Below, one piece after another: positions 1-1,901 of a stretch of 64,000 nucleotides of DNA. Numbering within the stretch: the stretch's first letter is position 1; each line of letters starts with the position of its first letter. The translations under genes and the position numbers were made by a program. Source of the stretch: Actinomycetes bacterium (GTDB lineage Bacteria > Actinomycetota > Acidimicrobiia > Acidimicrobiales > Ilumatobacteraceae); the NCBI GenBank assembly GCA_025360105.1, contig JANYCT010000006.1, positions 1 to 64,000 of the forward strand. Reading direction: 5' to 3'. The notes below the pieces were generated by a model, which saw only the letters and a program-made list of their open reading frames with translations, made no database searches and was not told the origin of the DNA.

Positions 1-1901
1 GAGCCGATCGGCCGATTCGGGTCTTGCAACCCCGCCCGGCTGCGTCGGACGGCGTCCGCGACGGCCTTGACCGCCGCGTCCTGGTTCACCATGCGGAGGG
101 GGATTTGGTCTTCGAGCTTAATCAGCTTGTCGCGCTCGGCCGTGAGCATCCGCGCCACGGGGATGCCGGTCCACTGGCTGACGACCTCGGCGATCTCTTC
201 CGAGTCGACCTCGCGCTTGAGGAGGCGGCGGGCGTCCTTCGGCTGGCCGTCGCCGCGCGCCTCGGCGTCGGCGATCTTCTTTTCGAGGGCCTTGTGCTCG
301 GAATCGAGGGCGGCGAGGGCCTGATACTGGTTCTCGTCGACGCGGTCGCCGCGCGAGGCGGCCTGGCGGACTTCAGCGTAACCGCGCTCGTATTCGCTCT
401 GTACGCTTGCCAGACGCTCCCGAAGTTTCTGTACGTCGCCCAGGCCCGACTTCTCGAACTCCCACTGAGCCCGCAGATCGCTCTCTTCCTTGCGGAGCTT
501 GTCGATCTCCTCCTCGACTTCGGCCAGGCGCTCGAGGGCGTGCTCCTCGTCCTCGTTCTTGAGCATCCGCTGGGCAAGTTCGAGCTGGAGCAACCGCCGC
601 TGGATCACGTCGATCTCGGTCGGCACCGATTGCAGCTCCATCGCCAGCCGGCTGCACGCCTCGTCCATCAGGTCGATCGCCTTGTCGGGCAGGAAGCGAT
701 CGGTGATGTAGCGCGAGGCGAGCTTGGCGGCCGAGACCAAGGCGGAGTCGCGGATCTTGACCTTGTGGTGGACCTCGTACCGCTCCTTCAGGCCTCGCAG
801 GATGGCCACCGTGTCCTCGACCGAGGGCTCGCCGACGAAGACCGGCTGGAACCGCCTTTCGAGGGCCGCGTCCTTCTCGATATGCTCGCGGAACTCGTCG
901 AGCGTCGTCGCGCCGATGCATCGCAGCTCGCCTCGCGCGAGTGCCGGCTTCAGGAGGTTGGCCGCATCCATGGAGCCCTCGCCCTTGCCCGCGCCGACGA
1001 CCGTGTGAAGCTCGTCGATGAAGAGGACGATGCGTCCCTCGGAGGCGGTCACGTCCTTCAGGACGGCCTTCAACCGCTCCTCGAACTCGCCGCGAAACTT
1101 GGTGCCCGCCACCAGCGCGCCCATGTCGAGCGAGATCACCTTTCGGTCGCGCAGCGACTCCGGCACGTCGCCCGACACGATCCGCTGGGCCAGCCCCTCG
1201 ACGATCGCCGTCTTGCCGACGCCGGGTTCGCCGATGAGCACCGGGTTGTTCTTGGTGCGGCGGCTGAGGATCTGCATGACGCGCTCGAGCTCGCGCGAGC
1301 GGCCGATGACGGGGTCGAGCTTCTTTTCACGTGCGAGCTGGGTGAGGTTGCGACCGAACTGATCGAGAATCTGGCTATTGCCTTTGTCGGCTGCTTCCTC
1401 TTTTCCAGCGGCGCCGGGACCGGTGGCCGAGGTCTGTGCCTCGCCGGGCTTGCCTTGGCCACCCTGATAGCCCGAGAGCAACTGGATGACCTGCTGGCGC
1501 ACACGACTGAGGTCGGCGCCGAGCTTTACGAGCACCTGTGCGGCAACGCCTTCACCCTCACGGATGAGGCCGAGCAAGATGTGCTCGGTGCCGATGTAGT
1601 TGTGGCCCAACTGCAGCGCCTCGCGCAACGACAGTTCGAGCACCTTTTTGGCGCGTGGGGTGAAGGGAATGTGACCCGACGGCGACGAACCGCCTTGGCC
1701 GATGATTTCCTCGACCTGGCTACGAACAGCCTCCAACGAGATGCCCAGCGATTCCATGGCCTTGGCGGCCACACCTTCGCCCTCATGGATGAGTCCAAGC
1801 AAGATGTGCTCGGTTCCGATGTAGCTGTGGTTGAGTAGCCGCGCTTCTTCTTGCGCTAGCACGACGACTCGACGAGCCCTATCTGTAAAGCGTTCGAACA
1901 T
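1..1901 (-). CDS. Clp/Hsp100 ATPase, ClpC-like N-terminus fused to ClpB-like body (partial)
   Basis: AAA+ protein unfoldase, cut by the left window edge after about 633 codons. It starts at ATG 1899-1901 ([13 protein letters not shown]). Residues 1-145 hold two Clp_N repeats, each ending in [11 protein letters not shown], as in ClpC. Walker A GEPGVGKT is near residues 224-231 and a Walker B with FIDELH is near 295. About 155 residues lie between the end of the first ATPase domain (near 410) and [11 protein letters not shown] (near 575). That is the long coiled-coil middle domain of ClpB, not the short one of ClpC, and the sequence after Walker A also reads as ClpB. Glutamate codons are about evenly GAA/GAG before Walker A but almost all GAG after it. 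It is either a true hybrid or an assembly join in the conserved Walker A region, so whether it is a ClpP partner or a disaggregase is unsettled. Confidence 0.8.

Follow-up and report, generated by a model that had tools for sequence, protein, structure and literature searches.

An open reading frame at the very end of a contig combines the start of one Hsp100 chaperone, ClpC, with the core of another, ClpB. Is it a natural hybrid or a product of the assembly? The window analyzed here, 64,000 nucleotides in length, covers bases 1 to 64,000 of the 68,923-bp contig C12, which belongs to a 3.89-Mb genome consisting of 105 contigs. The frame in question (the clp ORF) lies on the minus strand, starts with the ATG at position 1901, and runs for 633 codons to position 3, where it is still open at the contig end. 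Both possibilities had been considered in the original prediction. A real hybrid ATPase would be a disaggregase carrying the N-domain of ClpC; otherwise, two genes would have been joined at Walker A during assembly.

Domain composition of the clp ORF

Pfam identified two Clp_N repeats (PF02861) and one AAA domain with its lid in the clp ORF. The two N-terminal repeats are those of ClpC, but the ClpC-type AAA core and the short middle domain are absent. The core that follows Walker A is instead that of ClpB, and it is only 44% identical to the ClpC of a congeneric genome, G007. This piece matched the NCBIfam ClpB model TIGR03346 at model positions 215 to 596 with 567 bits, a score that truncation of the gene at the contig end keeps under the full-length cut-off, and in a structure comparison solved ClpB chains aligned across its full length. 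Both lines of evidence place a ClpB-type first AAA domain and a long middle domain here. ClpB is not present in full, since its N-domain and its second AAA domain are missing: the N-terminal part is ClpC, and the contig stops before the second Walker A. The reading of the two parts in the original prediction was therefore accurate. The long middle region that it pointed out is also real, but it is ordinary for its source: a 396-residue stretch aligns end to end, with no difference in length, with the ClpB of G069, an Isosphaeraceae planctomycete.

The two parts have relatives in different phyla

Codons 1 to 226 (positions 1224 to 1901, minus strand) encode the two Clp_N repeats, a linker, and the first AAA domain as far as Walker A. 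Over codons 1 to 212, the amino acid identity was 98.6% to G007 and 93 to 97% to other genomes of the genus; at the DNA level, the identity to G007 was 89% up to coding nucleotide 660. We refer to this part as native. Codons from about 231 to 633 (positions 1 to 1209, minus strand) extend from just after the first Walker A through the middle domain and follow the ClpB of Isosphaeraceae (Planctomycetota). G069, the best match among 45 Isosphaeraceae genomes, was 90% identical in amino acids and 85% in DNA, and the ClpB of Aquisphaera insulae was 80% identical. Within the genus of G069, no closer donor was found; the search returned G069 alone. Identity to the ClpB proteins of the clade to which our genome belongs, including its own on contig C103, reached only 55 to 60%. 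That protein is complete, is encoded separately, and is 96% identical to the ClpB of G007. When positions 1 to 400 of the window were searched against the same genome, no second copy was found.

Searching with the two halves separately, as the original prediction had recommended, thus gave best matches in two different phyla. The ClpC-ClpB combination was found in none of 40 related genomes, and inheritance of the two halves together in one lineage is not what these matches indicate.

The switch lies within Walker A

A maximum-chi2 split over 672 informative sites placed the change from G007-like to G069-like sequence between coding nucleotides 678 and 693 (window positions 1224 and 1209). The chi2 value of the split was 270, as opposed to at most 21 in 1,000 shuffles, and an intact clpC from the same genus, used as a control, showed no split (chi2 of 8). 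The switch interval (positions 1210 to 1223, minus strand) falls inside the Walker A motif GEPGVGKT, or P-loop, where the bases are common to both parents and the exact point cannot be placed. The join had been expected in a segment conserved between ClpC and ClpB, and this is where it is. G007 and G069 share only 14 bases at this point, although both are relatives of the true parents rather than the parents themselves (the closest sequence to the ClpB piece has 85% DNA identity). The foreign ClpB piece occupies the very end of C12 and stops at the next conserved motif.

Parts from different organisms that meet in a sharp switch at a conserved stretch, as seen here, are expected of an assembly chimera. 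The intact reading frame is a counterpoint, as it would be expected also of a natural in-frame recombinant. Such a recombinant would have formed when the clpC of this lineage recombined at Walker A with an acquired planctomycete clpB; it would have replaced the end of the native gene and left the cell with a ClpB-type motor carrying the adaptor-binding N-domains of ClpC. An in-frame junction at a conserved segment and the strong mosaic signal agree with this scenario, whereas the lack of such a gene in all 40 relatives and the end of the foreign DNA exactly where the contig ends speak against it, as does the fate of the rest of the native gene.

The native remainder of clpC is on a second chimeric contig

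Next to the clp ORF, on the plus strand at positions 2057 to 3031, lies a polyprenyl (GGPP-type) synthase gene (Pfam PF00348), the usual divergent neighbor of clpC in the genus. Its product is 91% identical to that of G007 and 83 to 86% identical to those of other genomes of the genus, and is native as well. The synthase adjoins an ordinary ClpC in G001, G002, G003, G006, G007, and G008, all of the same genus, and the pair is also found in several other genera. Every fetched genome of the genus with this locus had one ordinary ClpC beside the GGPP synthase.

Our genome encodes one further ClpC, on contig C89, where it is accompanied by a different GGPP synthase, only 56 to 57% identical to the one in the window. 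This clpC is itself a mosaic. Upstream of the same motif, its DNA tracks that of G035, which belongs to another family of the same order, with 82 to 98% identity in 60-nucleotide steps; downstream, the remainder is 91% identical in DNA to G007. The split was found at coding nucleotides 651/657, with a chi2 value of 193 compared with at most 18.5 in shuffles. The G035-like sequence runs from the join to the contig end, comprising roughly the last 3.5 kb (about 54,500 to 57,992 of the contig, or about 11,500 to 14,993 of locus L114), and includes the GGPP synthase, which is 94% identical in amino acids to that of G035. On the other side of the join are a lipoprotein gene and radA, arranged as in G007. 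The native sequence displaced from C12 is thus found elsewhere in the assembly, with C89 holding the ClpC remainder and radA.

Could C89 simply be a contaminant, leaving the chimera on C12 as the only clpC of the genome? The presence on C89 of a second clpC and of a second, dissimilar GGPP synthase would suit that explanation. However, most of the C89 clpC (94% in amino acids) and the RadA protein (92%) match the genus best, with G007 as the closest relative, the genome has no other radA, and the similarity to G035 is confined to the clpC start and the sequence onward to the contig end. With the clpC remainder and radA proved native, we rejected plain contamination, which we consider the least probable of all the explanations, with next to no chance of being correct. 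Because the clpC remainder and the sole radA match G007, and the sequence from the clpC start to the contig end matches G035, C89 is, by its sequence matches, native up to the P-loop and foreign beyond it, a mirror image of C12.

The existence of C89 bears equally on natural recombination: the native ClpC remainder is still in the genome, joined to the ClpC start of a third organism. We regard a natural recombinant as highly improbable: exchanges that preserved the frame would have had to occur twice, independently, at one P-loop of a single genome, once with a donor from another phylum and once with a donor from another family, while both native parts were kept on separate contigs.

Rejoining the native parts restores an ordinary ClpC

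Just before the switch, C12 and C89 share an exact 36-mer, CCGCCGCACCAAGAACAACCCGGTGCTCATCGGCGA (positions 1228 to 1263 of the window, minus strand), the longest substring that the two clp genes have in common and a place where the paths of different organisms could cross. When the native start on C12 was connected to the native remainder on C89, the result was a ClpC gene of 854 codons, stop included, with no internal stop. The rejoined protein is identical to that of G007 at 834 of 854 positions (97.7%), compared with 810 of 854 for C89 as assembled. On the true chromosome, almost certainly, an ordinary ClpC adjoins the GGPP synthase and an ordinary ClpB, the one on C103, is encoded separately.

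The original prediction had also drawn attention to a change in codon use at the join. The change does exist: GC3 within the clp ORF rises from 0.75 in the native ClpC part to 0.90 in the ClpB piece, and GAG accounts for 11 of 22 glutamate codons in the first part and for 38 of 47 in the second (about 80%, and so not nearly all, as had been stated). The GC3 of the native remainder on C89 over the same stretch is 0.78, in agreement with the native part on C12. However, GC3 likewise rises over that stretch in the intact clpC of G007, though by less, from 0.80 to 0.87, and for this reason we gave the change in codon use little weight, as weak evidence on its own.

Origin of the chimeric contigs

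The same conserved P-loop is thus the site of two wrong joins, both close to a contig end, and this points to metagenome misassembly rather than to a hybrid disaggregase. Of the two alternatives raised at the outset, it is the assembly join at Walker A that the data support, with the halves in two phyla and the native ClpC remainder mis-joined at the same motif; the hybrid ATPase is left without support while that remainder persists on C89. From these comparisons, we are very nearly certain that the apparent hybrid is an artefact of metagenome assembly.

We infer that several organisms in the sample had clp genes identical at Walker A of the first AAA domain, over a length sufficient for collapse into one graph node, which the assembler, presumably lacking spanning reads, may have left by wrong edges. 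The native ClpC start on C12 would then have run on for about 1.2 kb into an Isosphaeraceae clpB, with the contig breaking immediately ahead of the second conserved Walker A, and the native remainder on C89 would have been linked to a clpC start and a GGPP synthase that belong to a bacterium of another family in the order. Conserved sequence common to different species has been described to give rise to "chimeric nodes," from which contigs can run on into the wrong species (PMC8171044). A mock-community test found its chimeric sequences at contig ends in every case (PMC8172020). The joins on C12 and C89 fit this published pattern: no part of the gene is more conserved than the one in which they lie, and the foreign pieces are at contig ends.

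Broken clpC genes in other genomes of the family

In genome G030, contig C3 (locus L125) ends within clpC: the start of the gene reaches only to codon 213, just short of the same P-loop. A second clpC, with 78% DNA identity, is found on contig C77 (locus L126) beside a partial, different GGPP synthase at the contig start. These two contigs may hold the same kind of misassembly. The gene is also split by contig ends in two other genomes of the family, between contigs C149 and C120 of G010 and between C78 and C6 of G013 (loci L122 to L124 and L130). Thus, clpC seems to be a frequent breaking point of assemblies.

Comparison with known systems

ClpC of the actinobacterial type is an Hsp100 partner of ClpP. 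Codons 1 to 226 of the clp ORF represent the ordinary ClpC of the genus, from the two Clp_N repeats into the first AAA domain, but the rest of ClpC is absent from C12 and is located on C89. Codons from about 231 to 633 are likewise ordinary Isosphaeraceae ClpB (the first AAA domain after Walker A, the lid, and the middle domain), without the ClpB N-domain and without anything from the second Walker A on. The piece is incomplete because one of its ends is fused to ClpC and the other is truncated where the contig stops.

ClpK and ClpG are natural ClpB-like disaggregases with other N-terminal parts. The clp ORF has the AAA core in common with them and gave partial NCBIfam matches, but the scores of 495 and 465 bits are far below the cut-offs of 1900. 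Nothing supports membership in either family.

With the clp ORF read as an assembly artefact, a false hybrid chaperone is removed from the list of candidates, and C12 and C89 need to be trimmed or rejoined before use. The case is also a warning that the P-loop of Hsp100 genes lets metagenome assemblies pass from one species into another. The chimeric ORF stays in frame and therefore resembles a plausible new protein.

The closest parallels are the interspecies chimeric contigs described previously (PMC8171044, PMC8172020), which likewise consist of parts from different species that meet at a short conserved join near a contig end. Unlike in those cases, two contigs of one genome were mis-joined here at the same motif, and the native gene is therefore recognizable.
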